Below are positions 1,453-13,339 of a stretch of DNA of 39,945 bases, one piece after another (position 1 is the first letter of the stretch; each line of letters starts with the position of its first letter). The stretch is taken from positions 1 through 39,945 of the forward strand of contig JAJRQE010000185.1 in assembly GCA_024280415.1 (NCBI GenBank), in the 5' to 3' direction. Source of the stretch: Spirochaetota bacterium (lineage in GTDB: Bacteria; Spirochaetota; Spirochaetia; B11-G9). The notes beneath the pieces are model-generated. The model saw only the letters and a program-made list of their open reading frames with translations. It searched no databases and was not told where the DNA came from. The position numbers and the translations under genes are program-made.

Positions 1453-3156
1453 TTATTCAACAACGACAACATCTTTCTTTTTTCTGGTAAATAGACCAAA
1501 TATTACGAGAACAACTACTACCACAAGCATAATTAGTGTTGACATAGCCGCAGAAGATCCATCCTTTCCATCTTTTTCCAGATTTATTACAGAAACTGCT
1601 GCCAGATGAACATCCGGAGATATTAAAAACAAAACGGCACTAACTGTTACCATAGATCTCATAAAGTAGTAGATAAGGTTACTCATGAATGAGACGCGGC
1701 TTAGAGGGAAAATAACCTGTAAAAAGGTTTTGGTGACACCTGCACCGAGACTTGTTGCCGCTTCATCCATCGAATTATCAATATTCTTCATATTTGTAAT
1801 ACTCGAGAGTGTTCCGAGAGTAAAATTACTTACAATTACATTTATTATAATCAGCAGGGGCATTCCATATAAAATATCATCAAGATTAAGAAATCTTGTA
1901 TTGTATATCAGGATATAACCAAGGCCCATAACCAGTCCAGGTATTGCAGCAGGAATTATTGAAAGAAGGTAGAGGGGCTGTGCAAAAAAAGGATTCTTTT
2001 TTTCTATTACATAGCCGTTAAGCATTGTAAAGATAGCACCGAAAACACCCACAGTTAAGGAAATCCAGAGGCTGGTCCATAAGACACCCATTCCTCCAGG
2101 GATTCTGAAGTTAAAATGGGCAAGAGTCGGTGTCCAGTTATACATCCATACCTTAACAAATGATTTATAGATAATAACCCCAACGATGGATAATAGAATA
2201 AATGCTATAGTCCAGCTGTAGGCGGTAAAGAAAATCTTTTTCCCCTTTCTGGATGGTGGAATTTCCGGATTGGCAAGACTGCTTATCAACGAGGCACTTT
2301 TCTTTGTAAAATAATAGTTCAGAAGAAAGGCGATAACAGAAGGTACCATGAGGATAACTGCAACTGTAGTTCCCAGATCGAATCTCTGCATTCCTATAAC
2401 CTGAAGGTATATTTCTGTTGAAAGAACCCTATATCCCCTTCCTATAATTATAGGATTTCCAAAGTCTGTTATTGCCAGATTAAAAACAAGTGCTGCTGCA
2501 GAAAAAATTCCGTATCTGGAAGTTGGAATTGTAATCTTAAAAAAAGATGTAAGCCCGGATGCACCCAGACTTGATGCTGCTTCATCCATTCTGGAGTCGA
2601 CGGCAGAGAGTGTTGTATATAAGATTACCATTGCATGGGGAAATGAATAGAGGACTTCAGCGATAATTATCCCATTAGGGCCGTATATGTTCCAGTCAGT
2701 GTTAAAAAGACCTGCTGTTATCAGTCCATTGGATCCAAAGAGGGAGATCAGAGCCATTGCCTGAAGCATTGAAGGTGCAATGAGTGGGATCATTGCCAGA
2801 TAGTATAAAGATTTTTTCCATCTTATTGTTGTTCTTGTAAGTCCATAAGCAAAGATAAATGCCAGTACCGTTGTAAAAAGTGTCGTCCATAAAGCAATCC
2901 ACAAACTGTTCAGGAGAGCCTGTACCATTGCAGGTTTCTGGAAGTATCCTGTAAAATTACTGAAAGATAGTTTCCCTGTAAACTGATGCTGCTCGGGGAT
3001 ATACTCGGTAAGGCTCAGCCTGAGAATATTGAGAACAGGAAGCGCAAGAAAGATTATAAGAAAAAGGCCTATAAGACCCCCAATAATATAGACTATATAT
3101 TTATCTTCGATAATTGTTCTTTTATCCTTCAGGCTTCCTGTAGATGTTGTAGACAT
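1453..3156 (-). CDS. Iron(III)-type ABC transporter permease, two fused permease domains (AfuB/FbpB-like)
   Basis: 567 aa with two repeats of the permease EAA-like motif (DEAASSLGASGLTSFFKITIPTS and DEAATSLGAGVTKTFLQVIFPLS). Confidence 0.85.
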   Translation of the reverse strand: MSTTSTGSLKDKRTIIEDKYIVYIIGGLIGLFLIIFLALPVLNILRLSLTEYIPEQHQFTGKLSFSNFTGYFQKPAMVQALLNSLWIALWTTLFTTVLAFIFAYGLTRTTIRWKKSLYYLAMIPLIAPSMLQAMALISLFGSNGLITAGLFNTDWNIYGPNGIIIAEVLYSFPHAMVILYTTLSAVDSRMDEAASSLGASGLTSFFKITIPTSRYGIFSAAALVFNLAITDFGNPIIIGRGYRVLSTEIYLQVIGMQRFDLGTTVAVILMVPSVIAFLLNYYFTKKSASLISSLANPEIPPSRKGKKIFFTAYSWTIAFILLSIVGVIIYKSFVKVWMYNWTPTLAHFNFRIPGGMGVLWTSLWISLTVGVFGAIFTMLNGYVIEKKNPFFAQPLYLLSIIPAAIPGLVMGLGYILIYNTRFLNLDDILYGMPLLIIINVIVSNFTLGTLSSITNMKNIDNSMDEAATSLGAGVTKTFLQVIFPLSRVSFMSNLIYYFMRSMVTVSAVLFLISPDVHLAAVSVINLEKDGKDGSSAAMSTLIMLVVVVVLVIFGLFTRKKKDVVVVE

Positions 3157-3170
3157 TGTGCTACCTCCTA

Positions 3171-4229
3171 TTAGTTGGCAAAAGTAAGAAAGCTGTCAGG
3201 TGGGAGGTGAAGTTTTATTTCCTGCCCGCGTTCGAGTCCCATTTTGGTAAAATTCTTTTCCAGAATATCAACAATAATTTTCTGATCATTTTTATGAACA
3301 ATTAGTCTTACAATAAGTCCGAGAAATATTACTACCACAAGCTTTCCTGTAATCACATTTTCTTTAAGAGTGCTGTCTTTTTTGAGGACTTCAATTTTTT
3401 CCGGGCGGATTGCAGCAACACTTTTACCTGGCTCTGAGATGCCTGCAGAGTTGATTTTCAAGTGACAGATACTGCAGATAAGAGTTCCCTTGCTGATCTC
3501 CCCTTTAAAGAAATTAGTTGTACCTACAAAGTCGGCAACATAGTGGGACTTGGGTTTCTTGTATATTTCAACAGGTTTATCAATCTGTTCAATTGTTCCC
3601 TGATTCATTATAACTACTCTGTCAGATATTGAAAGAGCTTCCTCCTGATCATGGGTTACGTATATTGTTGTAATACCAAGTTCCGTCTGGAGCTCTTTTA
3701 TTTCAGCCCGGAGTTTTACCCTTATTTTAGCGTCCAGGGCACTTAAGGGTTCATCCAGAAGAAGTACTTCAGGGCTTGGAGCAAGTGCACGTGCCAGGGC
3801 AACTCTCTGCTGCATTCCTCCGGAGAGCTCAGGCGGGTATTTATGTTTATGTTTTATCAATCCCACAATGTTAAGAAATTCGTCTACCCTTTCGGTGATT
3901 TTGTCCTTTGGGTATTTGTGCATTTTTAAACCAAATGCAACATTTTCACTGACCTTCATATGGGGGAAAAGGGCGTAAGACTGGAATACTATTCCAAAAT
4001 TTCTTCTTTGGGGTGTCAGGTCATTAATTACATTTCCATTATAGATAATTTCTCCTGCAGTGGGAGTTTCGAAGCCTGCGATCATTCTAAGAGTCGTCGT
4101 TTTCCCGCATCCCGAGGGTCCAAGGAGTGTTAGGAATTCTCCTTTTCCTATTTCCAGATTAATTTTCTTTACAGCTTGAAATTTATCAAAGTTTTTAGAT
4201 ATATCTTTTAAAACAAGATTGTCAGCCAT
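3171..4229 (-). CDS. ABC transporter ATP-binding protein (FbpC/PotA-like)
   Basis: Walker A GPSGCGKTT, signature LSGGMQQRVALARAL, Walker B LLLDEPLSALD, TOBE-like C-terminus. Confidence 0.93.
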   Translation of the reverse strand: MADNLVLKDISKNFDKFQAVKKINLEIGKGEFLTLLGPSGCGKTTTLRMIAGFETPTAGEIIYNGNVINDLTPQRRNFGIVFQSYALFPHMKVSENVAFGLKMHKYPKDKITERVDEFLNIVGLIKHKHKYPPELSGGMQQRVALARALAPSPEVLLLDEPLSALDAKIRVKLRAEIKELQTELGITTIYVTHDQEEALSISDRVVIMNQGTIEQIDKPVEIYKKPKSHYVADFVGTTNFFKGEISKGTLICSICHLKINSAGISEPGKSVAAIRPEKIEVLKKDSTLKENVITGKLVVVIFLGLIVRLIVHKNDQKIIVDILEKNFTKMGLERGQEIKLHLPPDSFLTFAN

Positions 4230-4294
4230 TTGTGTACCTGCTATTTTTTATTTTTTAACCTATTCCAAACAGGGGTATAGATTGTAAGTACAAA

Positions 4295-4424
4295 ACTGGC
4301 TGTAATCTATTTAATTACAGCCAGTAAAAGATAGTTTATTGAGCTTCTTGCAAAACTATTGTTTTACAAGAAGCTGTTCTAAAGATCCTTGCCAAATTCA
4401 AAACCCGAGAGTTTTGAATTTGGC
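4295..4424. other. Three consecutive perfect or near-perfect hairpins between binding-protein and ATPase genes
   Basis: ACTGGCTGTAAT/ATTACAGCCAGT (4295-4306/4314-4325); AGCTTCTTGcAAAAC/GTTTTaCAAGAAGCT (4342-4356/4361-4375); GCCAAATTCAAAAC/GTTTTGAATTTGGC (4391-4404/4411-4424). Confidence 0.85.
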
Positions 4425-4478
4425 TCTATTAACTCCGAAACTTAAATAGTTCCAGGATTAGAATATTTTTAAAAAATC

Positions 4479-5519
4479 TTATTTTGCGATAGTTTTGTCC
4501 TGAAAAAGAGTTGTCCATTTATCTACAACAGCTGTTTTATTCGCTGCTGTCCAGTCGAAATCCATGTCGAAAAGTTTAACTTCGCTTGCAGGAGGCAAAG
4601 GAATGGAACTTTGTGACTCTACACCTGGAAGAGTAACCATGATTTTATACCTGGAGTAAAGTTCCATGGCATTCTTTGAAATTGCCCAGTCCAGGAATTT
4701 TTTTGCATTTTCTGCATTCTTAGCCCCTTTGAGAAGGGAATTTGCTTCCAGTTCATCACCGCTTCCTTCGGAAGGGAAAATTACTTCTACAGGATATCCT
4801 GAATCGAGCTGTTTTGCAGCACGGTAACCAAATGAAGCACCGATTGCCACTTCGCCCTTTGATGCTATTTTCGCAGGAGCTGAACCTGAGTTTGTATATT
4901 CTACAATATTTTTATGGAGTCTCTGGAGAAATTCCCAGCCTTCTTCGCTTCCGTCTTTAATTCCTTTCCAAAGGAGGATAGATGATACCTGCAGGTATCC
5001 TGTCCCTGAACTTCCCGGATTAGGCATAATAATTTCACCTGCATATTCCGGTTTTGTAAGATCTTCCCAGCTTCTTGGAATAGGGAGTCCTTTCTTTTCC
5101 AGTCTGTCGGTGTTTACACAGAAGGCTGCCACATACATATCTATAGCTGTCCAGTAACCGTCAGGATCTTTGAATTCGCTGGGAAGAGCATTCCATCCTT
5201 CAGCTTTGTATGGCTCAAAAAGATCTTTCATGTTGGCAAGTACAGTAACGGCTGTTCCCCATACAAGATCAGCCTGAGGATTATCTTTTTCTGCTATAAG
5301 TTTTGCTGCCAGTTCGCCGGTTGAATATCTTACCCATTTGATATCCAGACCAGGCAGTTCTTTTTCAGCCAAAGCCAGATAATCTGCTGTCTCATCCTCT
5401 TCAAGAGCAGTGTAAATTACAACTTCTTTTGATCCGCCTTCCTTATCCCCACCAGCAAAAAGAAAAGCAGGCGAAAGCAGTAATGTTATTAAAAGTACTG
5501 TAAATAGTTTCTTATACAT
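4479..5519 (-). CDS. Extracellular substrate-binding protein of iron(III)-type ABC transporter (FbpA/FutA-like)
   Basis: Signal peptide MYKKLFTVLLITLLLSPAFLFAGG; YTALEEDETADYLALAEKELPGLDIKWVRYSTGELAAKLIAEKDNPQADLVWG is typical of FbpA-type SBPs; followed by ATPase and permease genes. Confidence 0.85.
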   Translation of the reverse strand: MYKKLFTVLLITLLLSPAFLFAGGDKEGGSKEVVIYTALEEDETADYLALAEKELPGLDIKWVRYSTGELAAKLIAEKDNPQADLVWGTAVTVLANMKDLFEPYKAEGWNALPSEFKDPDGYWTAIDMYVAAFCVNTDRLEKKGLPIPRSWEDLTKPEYAGEIIMPNPGSSGTGYLQVSSILLWKGIKDGSEEGWEFLQRLHKNIVEYTNSGSAPAKIASKGEVAIGASFGYRAAKQLDSGYPVEVIFPSEGSGDELEANSLLKGAKNAENAKKFLDWAISKNAMELYSRYKIMVTLPGVESQSSIPLPPASEVKLFDMDFDWTAANKTAVVDKWTTLFQDKTIAK

Positions 5520-5800: not shown

Positions 5801-6019
5801 TTATCTTTCTCTGTAGATAATTCTACCTCTTGTAAGGTCGTAAGGGGAGAGAGCAACACGAACCTTGTCGCCTGGAACTATACGTATATAGTGTTTACGC
5901 ATTTTACCCGAAAGATGGGCAAGTATGACATGTCCATTTTTAAGCTCTACTTTGAACATTGTGTTTGGAAGAGATTCCTTTACAATTCCTTCAACTTCTA
6001 TCGCTTCCTCTTTTGCCAC
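5801..6019 (-). CDS. infA: Translation initiation factor IF-1
   Basis: 72 aa [75 protein letters not shown] start with GGAGG SD. Confidence 0.97.
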
Positions 6020-6048
6020 GTTGCCTCCACAGAAATATTTGTGGGCTT

Positions 6049-6077
6049 ATACTATGGTAATAGAAAAATTTTGTCAA
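6049..6077 (-). promoter_or_regulatory. Predicted sigma70-type promoter of infA
   Basis: Minus strand TTGACA-17 bp-TAGTAT upstream of infA. Confidence 0.6.
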
Positions 6078-6150
6078 GGAGTTGACATTTCTCCGTTTTT
6101 GGGGCAAATTAATTTGCTTTTAGGACTTGGGTAATTTTGAAGGTTGTAAA

Positions 6151-6507
6151 ATGGAAAAGTTAATGGAAAAGAGATTTCTGGAACTTCTGGTACAGGCAAA
6201 AGAGGATATTATGTCCTCTCTTATCTCAGAAAGCAAGGAGTTTGAAGCTATAGTTGATGATATGGATCCAAAGGATCTTGCTGATCTTGCTGCAGATGAT
6301 ATAGATAAAAAAACTCTGGAGGCTCTAAATCAAAAGGATCTCAGGAAGCTGAGATTAATTGATTCTGCGTTATCAAGGGCTAAAAACGGTCGTTATGGTC
6401 TATGCATGCGTTGTGGATCAAGAATCCCGGAAGAACGTCTTGTAGCAATTCCCTATGCTCTTATGTGTATTGATTGTAAGAGTAGTGAGGAACGAAAATT
6501 AAGATAA
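6151..6507 (+). CDS. DksA/TraR-family zinc-finger protein
   Basis: C-terminal YGLCMRCGSRIPEERLVAIPYALMCIDCKS is the DksA/TraR C4 zinc finger. Start chosen at MEKLMEKR rather than the longer ORF start. Confidence 0.85.
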   Translation: MEKLMEKRFLELLVQAKEDIMSSLISESKEFEAIVDDMDPKDLADLAADDIDKKTLEALNQKDLRKLRLIDSALSRAKNGRYGLCMRCGSRIPEERLVAIPYALMCIDCKSSEERKLR

Positions 6508-6579
6508 GGTCATAGTTCAGATGTTTTGATCCGGCATTATTTTCGTTATTGAGGAACGAAAATTAAGATAAGGTCATAG
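6486..6579 (+). repeat. 30-bp exact direct repeat at the 3' end of the DksA-like gene
   Basis: TGAGGAACGAAAATTAAGATAAGGTCATAG at 6486-6515 and again at 6550-6579 (64-bp spacing). Confidence 0.9.
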
Positions 6580-6660
6580 AAGAGTGAAAATTATGATAAA
6601 ACTGTAAATTCGTATTAAATAAGTTTTGTTTTCTTCCGAAAATTAAAGAAGGAAACATTT

Positions 6661-7050
6661 ATGGAAATACAAACTACTGCGCCATTATCCTCAATTTCTC
6701 TTTCAAATGTTGTCAGGGCTGCAAGTGGTTCCGGGAGGATAAGCTTTCCTGTTGACTCTACAACCCTTGTTTACACAAATTTTAAAAATATTAAGACAGT
6801 ACCTTCCTCCGGAGATACCGGAACTTATTCTGTTTCAAGACTTAGAGCTCTGGATAATTTAATAGAACAGCTAAATCGAATGAAAGAATTAAAGGGTTGG
6901 AAGTTTCCTGAAATTAACAAAATGGAAACACCAGAGCTGGACTCCCTGATATCGGAGCTCTCTGACAGGATCCATTCGGGACTGCAGACAAACAGATCCT
7001 TTAAAACACCGATTGATACATCCGGTTTGCTTTTTAATCTGATGGCTTAG
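6661..7050 (+). CDS. Hypothetical protein
   Basis: 129 aa ORF with AAGAAGG upstream of ATG; no recognisable domain. Confidence 0.6.
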   Translation: MEIQTTAPLSSISLSNVVRAASGSGRISFPVDSTTLVYTNFKNIKTVPSSGDTGTYSVSRLRALDNLIEQLNRMKELKGWKFPEINKMETPELDSLISELSDRIHSGLQTNRSFKTPIDTSGLLFNLMA

Positions 7051-7131
7051 AAACATCTTCGACATTGGAATTTCAAAAAAGAGCAACTCAGATATTGTCA
7101 CTATCTTCATAATAGTAAATTTATCGTAACT

Positions 7132-7800
7132 TCAGGTAATAAAGGGATTGTGTTTTCGCTCTCTTTCAATTGTACTGAAAGGTCCATGTCCTGGAAATAC
7201 GCGTGTTTCATCCGGTAGCTGCAATAATTTATTTTTAATGCTATGGATAAGGATATCCATATTCCCTCCAGGCAGGTCAGTTCTTCCCACCCCCTCGAAG
7301 AAAAGTGTATCACCTGAAAATAAAAAATTCTGGGATTCACTGTAGAGACTTATTCCTCCAGGACTATGCCCTGGTGTTTCGATTACTTTAAGGTCAGAGT
7401 CAAACAGGAAATCTCCTTCTTTAAGAATTATATCTGCTTCGGGGATTGTATGTATTTCAATATTGTAGCTCAGAAGCAGTTCGGTGGAAATCCCTTCGAT
7501 GCTTTTTGTGTGGATATCCTCAGATTCGGAACCAAAAAAATGAACTTCCTTTTCATGCACTGCCAGAGGGAGTTGTATTCCTTTATTGTAATAATAGTGC
7601 TGGATATCCTTAATTGAAGAGATATGATCGATATGGCCATGAGTGCATACTATACCCCTTGGGGTAAGGTTTTTACCTGTCATATGGGAGATGATCTTTT
7701 CTGTATCACCACCTGGATCTATTATTATACACTCTTTTTTCCATTCTGAAAAAAGATACGAATTTGTGGAGAAAACTCCTACTACAATACGATCTACCAT
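7132..7800 (-). CDS. MBL-fold metallo-hydrolase (glyoxalase II-like)
   Basis: Motifs THGHIDHISS, TPGHSPGGISLY, FSGDTLFFEGVGRTDLPGG, VFPGHGP. Confidence 0.9.
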   Translation of the reverse strand: MVDRIVVGVFSTNSYLFSEWKKECIIIDPGGDTEKIISHMTGKNLTPRGIVCTHGHIDHISSIKDIQHYYYNKGIQLPLAVHEKEVHFFGSESEDIHTKSIEGISTELLLSYNIEIHTIPEADIILKEGDFLFDSDLKVIETPGHSPGGISLYSESQNFLFSGDTLFFEGVGRTDLPGGNMDILIHSIKNKLLQLPDETRVFPGHGPFSTIERERKHNPFIT

Positions 7801-7827
7801 GTTAATCTCTAGTTTAAGGTATTTACT

Positions 7828-9005
7828 GTGACATTACAAGCAATAGTTTATCAGCGACTGTTTATTATTATTATGGTTACTCTTTTTTTTATGGCGTCGT
7901 TCCATTGATTGGGGCTTTTTCTGTAAGGCGAATGTGGCGCCATTTCAGATCCAGGTTAATGACAGCTGCTCTCAAACCTTCTTTGTCCTACAGATCGGTT
8001 TATGGTAGTAATAAAGATGGGGAATATAGATTTTTTGGTTCCCTCCAGGCTGTACAGGATGAACACAGGATATGGCTGTCAGACGGTAATATATCTGTAA
8101 ATGTCGACCTGGAGGGAGGTCCTGTATATATTCTTCCTCCGATCGTTGAAGGGGAGTTATTTAATACGAACTATTACCATCAGGATAACAGTCCCAGGAA
8201 GACCTATTGGAACAGGGTTTTTTCTCTGCCTGAGGGTACACGCTTTTTTGTTTCGGGACAGTTTGTCCATGAAAATGGTAAATCTTTCTTTACAAAAACA
8301 AAGGAAACGCCCCTTGCTGTTGTAATTTATGATTGTGAGGATTCAGTTTTTTTCAGTCATGCAGTTCTATCCGGCAGGCAGAGAAATGAGTATTGGAATG
8401 CTCTTACTCCCGGATCCCTCACTATCGGATCATTTACACTGTTTATATATTTTTATCTGCTCATCCAGATGCCGTATATGCGGTTTGCCGCAGTAACAGC
8501 AGTAACTTTCAGTCTGGTTCCTATTATGCCGTTTCTTCCCCCAGGGGTAGTATTTTACTATATTTACCGAAATTACTGGAAACGTGCACGAATTCTTAGG
8601 GCAGAGAGAGATATTCTGTTAATTCCGGTAAATTTCTTTTCTAAAGTAATGGATTTTCAAGAGGATAGCTCAGTTACCCTTGCCAGTGGTCTGAAATATG
8701 GTTGTTTTGTAAGAAGAACAAGAGATGAAGCCTTTGGTGTATTTGAGAATGCAGTTGAAAGGGATTTGTCTCTAAAAAAAATCCGGAATGATCAGGATAA
8801 ATTCTATATATTCGGCTTGCTTTCCGTAAAAGGTAAAGACTATATGGCTGAAACTCTGGTTGTTCCCGGAAACCCGAATGAGCTGTCATTACACGCAACT
8901 AAAAAAGCAAGAAAATATGAGATAATATCAATTCTCTCATTTGGAATTGGTTTTTTTATGAATTTATTGATATTTCTCACTTTTCTAACCCTGATTGTTC
9001 CCTGA
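7828..9005 (+). CDS. Hypothetical membrane protein; apparent -1 nt frameshift near 7897-7904
   Basis: GTG 7828 after TAAGGT opens MTLQAIVYQRLFIIIMVTLFFMASF, then the frame shifts to ...PLIGAFSVRRMWRHFRSR and continues to 9005 (the ORF track gives only 7905..9005 from a TTG). Two C-terminal TM regions. Confidence 0.6.
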
Positions 9006-9030
9006 AAACTTTTGTGATGTTGCAAATATC

Positions 9031-10191
9031 CTAAGTTCTTTTTTTGGCAAAATCGACTGAAATTTTTCTGCCCCTGTATTCCATTCCATTCATTTTATCA
9101 ACTGCTGTTTTACATAAATTTTCATTAAGATCAACGAATGAATAGTTATCCAGGACTTTAATGGGACCTATTGCAGTCGATTTAATATCGAGAGATTTCT
9201 GAAAAAGTTTCATGAGATCAGCAGGGTGAACCCTTCTTCTTCTTCCAATGCTGACAAAAAGAGTTTTCATGTTCCCTGGAACCGAAGACCCGGAAGTTTT
9301 TATTGTGATCCCTTCTGTATCCCTAAGTAGTTTTGCAGCAAAATAGGATCGTAAAAATATGGGAACATTTTTCTTGAATATCTTTCTGTACTCAGTTAGG
9401 CTATCTGGATTTGCCTTTATTTCCTGTACAATAGACTGTATTTTTGCTTCTAGTTTCTGTGTATCCATTGATGATTCTCCTGACGGTATAGTATCTAATT
9501 TCTCCCTATGTGTATACAGGAGAGTTTGAGGATGAGTTAACATCTTATTCATATTTCCAAGATGATCAATATTAGTAATAAATATCTGGAACTTTGTTTT
9601 TCTATTCAGTTTTGAGGCAATAAACAGCATATCCTGTTCAAATCTGGATTCTGCCGGATTTTCAGATAACAGTAATATTATTTTTTTAATTTCTGATAAT
9701 ACAATATTGTTTCTTCGTATATGATCAATAATCCTGCTGGTAGTGCCGACAATGATAGCAGGTTTTTTTCTGAACAGATGCAGATCATTTCCCGCCTTTC
9801 CTTCGATTCCCAGGGGAGCAAGGCTCATGTTGAATTTGTTTGCATTGCTCAGAATTAGAAATTCATGAGTAATTTTTTCGATTGAGCCGGGTAAATCGGT
9901 AAGTATAATAACCCTGGGAGAGCTATTTTTAGGGAATTGTGTCAGCATCAGGGGAAGAAGGAAGGCTATTTTAATTCCTTTTGCACCTTTTGTTTCTGCA
10001 ACCAGATCTCTGTTTTTTAAAAGTGCAGAAAAAACATGTGACTGGAAAGATGTTGGTTTGATAAAACCGCACATTTTTAAAGCAGAATGAACAGTCGTAA
10101 TTTTACTGTGATGCCTTATCGGGTATTCCAAACTAGTATCCTGCCTGATTTTCTTTAAAATCAGGATATATTCAGAGTTGAGCTTTGTCAA
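9031..10191 (-). CDS. Degenerate DEAD-box helicase-like protein with DbpA-type RNA-binding C-terminus
   Basis: Q-motif-like GFIKPTSFQ; eroded motif I (AETKGAKGIK), motif II (LLLSENP) and motif III (FITNI); C-terminal TLFVSIGRRRRVHPADLMKLF...IGPIKVLDNYSFVDL...GRKISVDFA resembles the DbpA RBD. Confidence 0.75.
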   Translation of the reverse strand: MTKLNSEYILILKKIRQDTSLEYPIRHHSKITTVHSALKMCGFIKPTSFQSHVFSALLKNRDLVAETKGAKGIKIAFLLPLMLTQFPKNSSPRVIILTDLPGSIEKITHEFLILSNANKFNMSLAPLGIEGKAGNDLHLFRKKPAIIVGTTSRIIDHIRRNNIVLSEIKKIILLLSENPAESRFEQDMLFIASKLNRKTKFQIFITNIDHLGNMNKMLTHPQTLLYTHREKLDTIPSGESSMDTQKLEAKIQSIVQEIKANPDSLTEYRKIFKKNVPIFLRSYFAAKLLRDTEGITIKTSGSSVPGNMKTLFVSIGRRRRVHPADLMKLFQKSLDIKSTAIGPIKVLDNYSFVDLNENLCKTAVDKMNGMEYRGRKISVDFAKKRT

Positions 10192-10216
10192 GAAATTGAT
10201 AAAGACAGGGGGCAGA

Positions 10217-11419
10217 GTGAAGAAAATTGTAATAATTCTATTCTTGTTTATGGTTTCTATATCCGTTTTCGGAGAAATTTTCAGCTATAGGTATATTAAA
10301 GGTGAAAAATATAAAATAATTTCTGTTGTAGATGAAACTGTGTATATCGATGGGTTGTATCATCACAAAGCCAGGATATTGAATAAAATTTCAGTGGAAG
10401 TTCTTAATAGTTCAGAGGATGGTTCCTCTGGAGAGCTTGAAGCTAATTATTCAACTTCTGAAGAAAGAAGTGGAAATGTAAGAGTTTATTCTCTGGCCCA
10501 GGAGTATTATTCCAGGTTTAACAGGGACAGTACAGGTTTAATCGATATTGGTCCCGATTTTTTTATGCCGGTTGTAAGAAATGTCCCTCTTTTTGATGAT
10601 GGGGATTACAAACCCGGGGATACCTGGAGTTCAAAAGGATATGAAGTTCATGATTTACGAAACGGATATGGAATAAAGGAAGCTTTTGGTTTTCCCATTG
10701 ATGTCGATTATAAATATCTGGGAAAGGGGACAAAAGATGGAAAGGAGTACGATATTATCTCAATATTCTATTCTGTATAATATAAAACTCCGGAATATTT
10801 TTCCCGTTATCCCCTTTATCCTGTAAGGGTCACAGGCTACTCAGATCAGACTCTCTATTGGGATAATGAAATTGGCAGACCCTATTCCTACGAAGAGGAG
10901 TTTAGTATTCAGTTTAGTGTCTCCAATGGATCGACATATGAATTTACCGGAACTGCCGGAGCCCGGGTGACAGAATCTGAATATATGGATAAAAATAGAA
11001 TTGCCAGCTCTATTGAAACCCGGCTGGAAAAGGAAAAGCTGGAGAATGCAGTGGTAAATATTGATGAAAATGGGGTAACCATAACTCTTGGAAGTATTAA
11101 TTTTGGGGCAGATTCCTCCATTCTTAACTATGAGGAGAGACGAAAGCTTGATGTTCTTGTTGACATAATAAAAAATTATCCTGGAAGAGATATCCTTGTA
11201 ACCGGACATACTGCTCTGGCAGGAACCGAAGCAGGGCGAATGGCCTTATCGGAAAAGCGAGCTGCGATAGTTGCTGAATATTTTATAGTTCAGGGTCTCA
11301 AAAAAAGAGAGCAGCTGATTATTGTCGGGAAAGGTGCAACAGAGCCGGTAGCAGATAACAGCACTTCTGAAGGAATGACCAGGAACCGAAGGGTTGAAAT
11401 AACAATCGTTGAAAATTAA
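10217..11419 (+). pseudogene. OmpA-family outer membrane protein interrupted by in-frame TAA (10778-10780)
   Basis: ORF 10178..10780 (GTG start at 10217 gives signal peptide VKKIVIILFLFMVSISVFG) and ORF 10967..11419 share one frame. The intervening 10781-10966 is open (YKTPEYFSRYPLYPVRVTGYSDQTLYW...). C-terminus GSINFGADSSILNYEERRKLDVLVDIIKNYPGRDILVTGHTA...NRRVEI is an OmpA peptidoglycan-binding domain. Confidence 0.75.
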
Positions 11420-13255: not shown

Positions 13256-13339
13256 TACCGGCGATCGGAGTTGAACCGATACACCCTTGCGGGCGGCAGA
13301 TTTTGAGTCTGCTGCGTCTACCAATTTCGCCACGCCGGC
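13256..13339 (-). tRNA. tRNA-Leu (anticodon CAA)
   Basis: Minus strand GCCGGCGTGGCGAAATTGGTAGACGCAGCAGACTCAAAATCTGCCGCCCGCAAGGGTGTATCGGTTCAACTCCGATCGCCGGTA; long variable arm, loop CTCAAAA, GGTTCAACTCC T-arm; CCA not encoded. Confidence 0.95.

Follow-up and report, generated by a model that had tools for sequence, protein, structure and literature searches.

What does a reading frame encode when it resembles a DEAD-box helicase but has every ATPase motif altered: a failing enzyme, or something that has been kept for another use? We addressed this question for ORF 9031-10191 on the minus strand of the window, by which we mean the whole 39,945-nucleotide stretch of contig JAJRQE010000185.1 from a Spirochaetota bacterium (assembly GCA_024280415.1). 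The first-pass annotation had placed a single protein here, starting with TTG at 10191. Its reading frame is present and stands; the start most likely does not, its TTG being the first half of the TTGACA box of a promoter. The boundaries that we use are as follows:

9031..10131, minus strand: pseudohelicase gene, long product of 366 aa (TTG start at 10131, stop at 9033-9031; Shine-Dalgarno (SD) sequence and TTG conserved in the genus)
10139..10142, minus strand: SD (AGGA) of the long product, from sequence and genus comparison
10163..10191, minus strand: sigma-70-type promoter TTGACA-17-TATCCT (10/12 matches; same boxes visible in relatives)

Promoter-like sites of this kind are not more numerous than in shuffled sequence; the genus keeps TTGACA-N17-TATCCT across the position of TTG 10191, and the SD CAGGAT ahead of TTG 10131 is conserved in the genus as well. 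Because two relatives (L006 and L008) carry in-frame stops upstream of the conserved CAGGAT-N-TTG and downstream of the equivalent of 10191, the true start is most likely the TTG at 10131, and residues 1-20 of the 9031-10191 reading are most likely non-coding.

The helicase resemblance lies in the N-terminal part of the protein. Pfam gives a weak DEAD match at residues 47-173 of ORF 9031-10191 (E 3e-7), and the best NCBIfam helicase model, DbpA, reaches 78 bits against a cut-off of 524. An AlphaFold2 model, computed from 45 aligned relatives and numbered from the corrected start at 10131, has a mean pLDDT of 86.5 and comprises a RecA1 domain (1-205), a disordered linker (214-221), three helices (224-272) and an RRM-like domain (288-361). 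In Foldseek searches, the first RecA domain of CshA, Hera and UAP56 was matched at 2.3-2.6 Å, with DbpA structures on top. A second RecA domain with motif VI (HRxGRxGR) is absent from the window protein by Pfam and AlphaFold2, and the HMM search that had been proposed for a cryptic Helicase_C domain returned no Pfam match in the window ORF. Pfam, AlphaFold2 and Foldseek agree with the original description of a DEAD-box-derived protein with the first RecA domain only and a DbpA-type RNA-binding domain (RBD).

9517..10131, minus strand: RecA1-like pseudohelicase domain, residues 1-205 (Pfam, AlphaFold2, Foldseek)
9970..9993, minus strand: degenerate motif I, TKGAKGIK in place of AxTGxGKT (alignment with active helicases)
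9712..9747, minus strand: conserved motif Ib region GTTSRIIDHIRR (I135, D136, H137 and R139 at least 90% conserved)
9661..9672, minus strand: degenerate motif II, LLSE in place of DEAD (alignment with active helicases)

Motifs I, Ia, II and III had been reported as altered, and alignment with active helicases bears this out: the catalytic lysine of motif I is replaced by isoleucine, PTREL reads DLPGS, DEAD reads LLSE and SAT is gone, the last judged by eye. The Q motif GFIKPTSFQ is retained. Judged by the defining motifs, which it fails, the window protein is not a DEAD-box helicase, and its RecA1-like domain is predicted to be unable to work as an ATPase.

Alteration of all the ATPase motifs, together with a RecA part that evolves faster than the C-terminal part, is also what a decaying helicase pseudogene or a strain-specific defect might look like. 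Conservation makes that explanation extremely improbable: the frame is open in the same genus at 57-64% identity and in other families at about 27-39% over most of its length, open frames are maintained across about 30 families, and dN/dS is well below 1. Most dN/dS values in the genus fall at 0.14-0.33 for RecA1 and at 0.05-0.2 for the C-terminal part, many pairs being saturated; L008/L009, the full comparison least affected by saturation, yields 0.14 and 0.10, respectively. The choice between a conserved form and strain-specific decay, which had been posed beforehand, thus falls to the former, since the degenerate form is family-wide. DEAD occurs in 0/69 aligned relatives of the window gene and HRxGR in 0/37 relatives having a second RecA domain, while GKT or GKS is retained in 20 of the 69 aligned loci; orthologues with intact ATPase motifs, sought as a refutation, were not found. 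The most conserved stretch of the RecA part across relatives is the motif Ib region (GTxxRIIDHIRR). By these sequence measures, the degenerate RecA domain is under purifying selection and not in decay, and the family combines a helicase fold under selection with the loss of catalytic motifs, as expected of a pseudohelicase. The proposal of a pseudohelicase repurposed as an RNA-binding factor is well supported by this conservation over genera and families.

With a profile of the C-terminal part, 326 of 395 Spirochaetia genomes give a match, although the active paralogue may account for some of the weaker ones; family f20, with genomes of about 0.9-1.8 Mb, is without the C-terminal part. The source genome itself encodes several active DEAD-box helicases, one of them of DeaD type and equipped with a DbpA RBD; beyond this RBD and that of the window protein, no further one of the kind was found in it.

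Two domains make up the C-terminal part:

9316..9462, minus strand: helical domain, residues 224-272, probably a DeaD/CshA/Hera-type dimerization domain
9049..9270, minus strand: DbpA-type RNA-binding domain, residues 288-361 (Pfam, profile comparison, AlphaFold2)

The DbpA RBD (PF03880) is matched at residues 310-379 of ORF 9031-10191 (E 8e-18; 64.7 bits against a gathering score of 25.6) and in 29/29 relatives. The window RBD is closest to that of YxiN (2g0c/3moj; E 6e-9), which like DbpA is a helicase directed at hairpin 92 of 23S rRNA. The one base-specific contact common to Hera and YxiN is with a guanine, bound in YxiN through the main chain of I436, G437 and I439; YxiN K427 contacts a uridine (PMC3695512). 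All four positions are matched in the window RBD; G423, a loop contact, is replaced by lysine. Because the guanine-contact positions and K427 are kept, the window RBD likely binds RNA, and hairpin 92 is a putative target, with the reservation that G423 is not kept. Unlike DbpA and YxiN, the window protein is without an active core and has an extra helical domain.

The helical domain occupies the place of the dimerization domain in DeaD, CshA and Hera. PF25399 (DeaD_dimer, the DeaD-type dimerization domain) matches weakly in 2/29 members (best E 0.022), and hhalign against the dimerization domains of active members of the phylum gives a probability of 55% and E 1e-4 over 54 collinear columns, which is of modest significance. 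From this position and modest alignment we infer dimer formation, the domain probably being of the DeaD/CshA/Hera type.

The gene was at first taken to encode one odd protein, which overlooked a second set of initiation signals inside it:

9477..9481, minus strand: internal Shine-Dalgarno AGGAG, 8 nt ahead of the internal ATG
9031..9468, minus strand: predicted short product, 145 aa, helical domain and RBD (internal ATG at 9468-9466)

The window linker reads TCAGGAGAATCATCA-ATG, that is, AGGAG at 9481-9477, 8 bases and ATG at 9468. This start sits within the modelled disordered linker, just ahead of the helical domain, and the 145 residues that follow coincide exactly with the helical domain plus RBD. 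In each of the six genus members (6/6), AGGAGA or an AGGAGA-like sequence precedes ATG or GTG at the same spacing; in profile coordinates, the internal start of the window genus lies at +6.

We examined 70 fused genes with an SD-first test, in which an SD core within an 18-codon site was followed by an in-frame ATG, GTG or TTG at initiation spacing, with the expectation computed from the same ORFs. An SD core lies within the site in 67/70 genes, and a core with a correctly spaced in-frame start codon in 62/70, compared to 1.2 expected. Counted by core, a spaced start codon follows 62 of 73 cores at the site versus 32 of 355 elsewhere (Fisher p 4e-39, which overstates independence because the loci are related), and the ATG or GTG after the core is in frame at 61 loci and out of frame at 1. 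A second test with sliding windows of 16 codons, which treated all places in the ORF alike, put the site in the top 5% of its own ORF's SD windows in 68 of 72 genes and found it to be the best window in 55 of 72. Among the eight misses of the SD-first test, four (L012, L017, L019 and L109) carry a comparable SD and ATG that stand further apart, and a fifth (L102) has a GGGGGAG variant; the fused genes L103 and L125 have no clear internal start. An excess of GAG codons at the site is biased, as the site was chosen by SD strength, and was not relied on.

Within coding regions, SD-like sequences have been proposed to make ribosomes slow down, and Gln-Glu is common in the linker, so that AGGAG might mark a site of ribosome pausing, or simply reflect conservation of a linker peptide, in a gene that makes only the long pseudohelicase. 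We consider this improbable. The SD core occurs in all three codon phases (42/13/7), the start codon may be ATG, GTG or TTG, and the residues encoded at the core differ between lineages (QE, GE, GD, KE and EE), so nucleotides rather than a peptide are conserved; the spaced in-frame start codons counted above also speak against it, as do the stand-alone homologues, 22/22 of which begin at the same aligned point behind an SD. The conserved internal start is absent from the phylum's active DEAD-box proteins that share this C-terminal layout (L127, L128, L130 and L131) and its signal from the DeaD paralogues of the window genus and family (L003 and L167-L170); in this paralogue control, a good but unconserved SD turns up in a few active helicases, at some point of a much wider junction region. 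No Rfam RNA family overlaps the pseudohelicase gene. These patterns argue strongly for a second translation start, and we infer that both proteins are produced: a two-product gene, with a long pseudohelicase and a short RNA-binding protein, is the highly likely prediction.

As a separate observation, the active DeaD paralogue of one genus member (L171; G004:C103) has an isolated AGGAG and ATG inside its C-terminal domain (-7.3 kcal/mol) that is not found in relatives.

The family occurs in three forms: proteins of about 500 aa carry two dead RecA domains, those of about 370-400 aa, among which we count the window protein, carry a single one, and those of about 150-300 aa have no RecA domain. 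The initial reading of a single-RecA pseudohelicase holds for the window protein, but had not seen the other two forms. One two-RecA member (L023) is modelled with two RecA-like domains, the helical domain and the RBD (pLDDT 85.9; Foldseek to DbpA E 5e-33). A remnant of the end of RecA2 seems to survive at the junction of several one-RecA members, a pattern indicative of an internal deletion. In a tree of the C-terminal part whose root is not fixed, the stand-alone form needs about 10 changes, at least 6 of them forced by well-supported branches, and three families (f31, f34 and f37) hold both fused and stand-alone forms. Three stand-alone genes (L157-L159) also share a neighbourhood with fused genes, in which a 290-396 aa protein without a Pfam match comes first, followed by varying sets of a metallo-beta-lactamase-fold hydrolase, an OmpA-like protein and a DksA/TraR zinc-finger protein. 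Together, the tree changes, the mixed families and the shared neighbourhood suggest that the RecA part was probably removed in place more than once, with the short protein retained. A search for helicase remnants upstream of stand-alone genes found none, the sole match being a fused gene truncated by its contig.

The opposite direction would be a gene merger, in which a stand-alone RNA-binding gene with its own SD was fused in frame to an upstream helicase fragment. This concerns origin only and is compatible with the two-product anatomy, the internal start then being inherited. Sister classes do carry stand-alone homologues, which fall outside the Spirochaetia clade in the tree. We nevertheless think a merger rather unlikely: active DeaD-type helicases are also arranged as RecA1-RecA2-helical-RBD, pseudo forms with two RecA domains exist, and a mere leftover would not stay so consistent in about 30 families.

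Two further observations concern stand-alone proteins. Other classes of the phylum carry a widespread and apparently undescribed stand-alone protein of about 165-200 aa with the helical domain and RBD (L132-L139). In treponeme-type and related stand-alone forms (L140 and L143-L146), a long low-complexity linker separates the helical domain from the RBD, and some of these proteins have acidic C-terminal tails.

In a genome that we presume to be Treponema pallidum, the stand-alone form is a 234-residue ORF, probably TP1029. TP1029, which has a mass of 25 kDa and is annotated as a DbpA RNA-binding domain protein, ranks in the top 50 both for protein abundance by mass spectrometry (PMC5015957) and for transcripts by RNA-seq (PMC8525777). 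Based on this abundance and the RBD evidence, we tentatively take the short form as the main product and a general RNA/ribosome factor, with the long form as a partner that adds a docking surface; this division of roles is possible, though less likely than not as stated. A role in 23S rRNA assembly, as first suggested, is plausible, with rRNA as a conjectured target.

The proposed mechanism is as follows. The spirochaete family would descend from a DeaD/DbpA-type DEAD-box helicase. Its long protein (366 aa) would consist of an ATPase-dead RecA1-like domain, a flexible linker, a helical, probably dimerizing domain and the RBD; its short protein (145 aa), the helical domain and RBD alone, would arise from ribosomes initiating at the built-in SD and ATG in the linker. 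The short RNA-binding protein would be the part that selection keeps in every lineage, probably working as an abundant dimer associated with RNA or ribosomes; the long form would probably dimerize with it, adding a docking surface in the conserved motif Ib helix. This explanation seems to us very probable in its anatomy (two proteins and a dead motor), and clearly less so in its functional part (a general RNA/ribosome factor and a docking surface). We hold with good confidence that the gene is a class-wide, programmed two-product gene and that the helicase part was discarded repeatedly in different lineages, where the internal start then took over as the sole one; what treponemes and others retain would be an abundant RNA-binding protein, as yet uncharacterised.

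To our knowledge, bacterial pseudohelicases have hardly been described, and the present family is conserved through most of a bacterial class. Its internal start suggests a path for the disassembly of a multidomain enzyme, from a dead motor through a second start to loss of the motor, and the family points to the highly expressed T. pallidum protein TP1029 as a probable general RNA/ribosome factor.

Our search of the accessible literature found no published description of the family or its internal start. The closest relatives in design are DeaD/CshA/Hera-type helicases, which share the domain order (in two-RecA members), the RecA folds, the DbpA-type RBD and a helical domain in the same place; in contrast to these, the family has destroyed motifs and an internal start codon, and the window protein is without a second RecA domain. 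By analogy, the family would fit the notion of a pseudohelicase as used for Utp25/Def of the yeast SSU processome, which has a DEAD-box fold with dispensable motifs (PMC9539457). Utp25 is eukaryotic, of an unrelated lineage and has two RecA domains, and the abstract of that study mentions no RBD or internal start. Cas8b/Cas11b likewise obtains two products from one gene, a long protein and, by way of an internal in-frame start, a small subunit made of its C-terminal end (PMC11899642), but is a CRISPR effector, whereas the spirochaete family yields a helicase-derived RNA-binding protein and has, in other lineages, a stand-alone small protein at the same locus.

The gene neighbourhood within the window (5801-10131) is partly conserved across Spirochaetia and includes genes for a DksA/TraR zinc finger, a 129-aa protein of no assigned kind, a metallo-beta-lactamase-fold hydrolase and a 366-aa protein without a Pfam match, followed by the pseudohelicase. 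Other features of the window are:

1453-5519, minus strand: 2-aminoethylphosphonate-type ABC transporter (permease, ATPase and binding protein; NCBIfam, all scores below curated cut-offs)
5801-6019: IF-1
13256-13339, minus strand: tRNA gene, the only Rfam match in the window

An OmpA-family gene (10178-11419, plus strand) adjoins the pseudohelicase gene. Relatives encode one protein of 399-414 aa here; in the window the gene is split by a single in-frame TAA at about 10780, which may reflect either an error in sequencing or a genuine nonsense allele.
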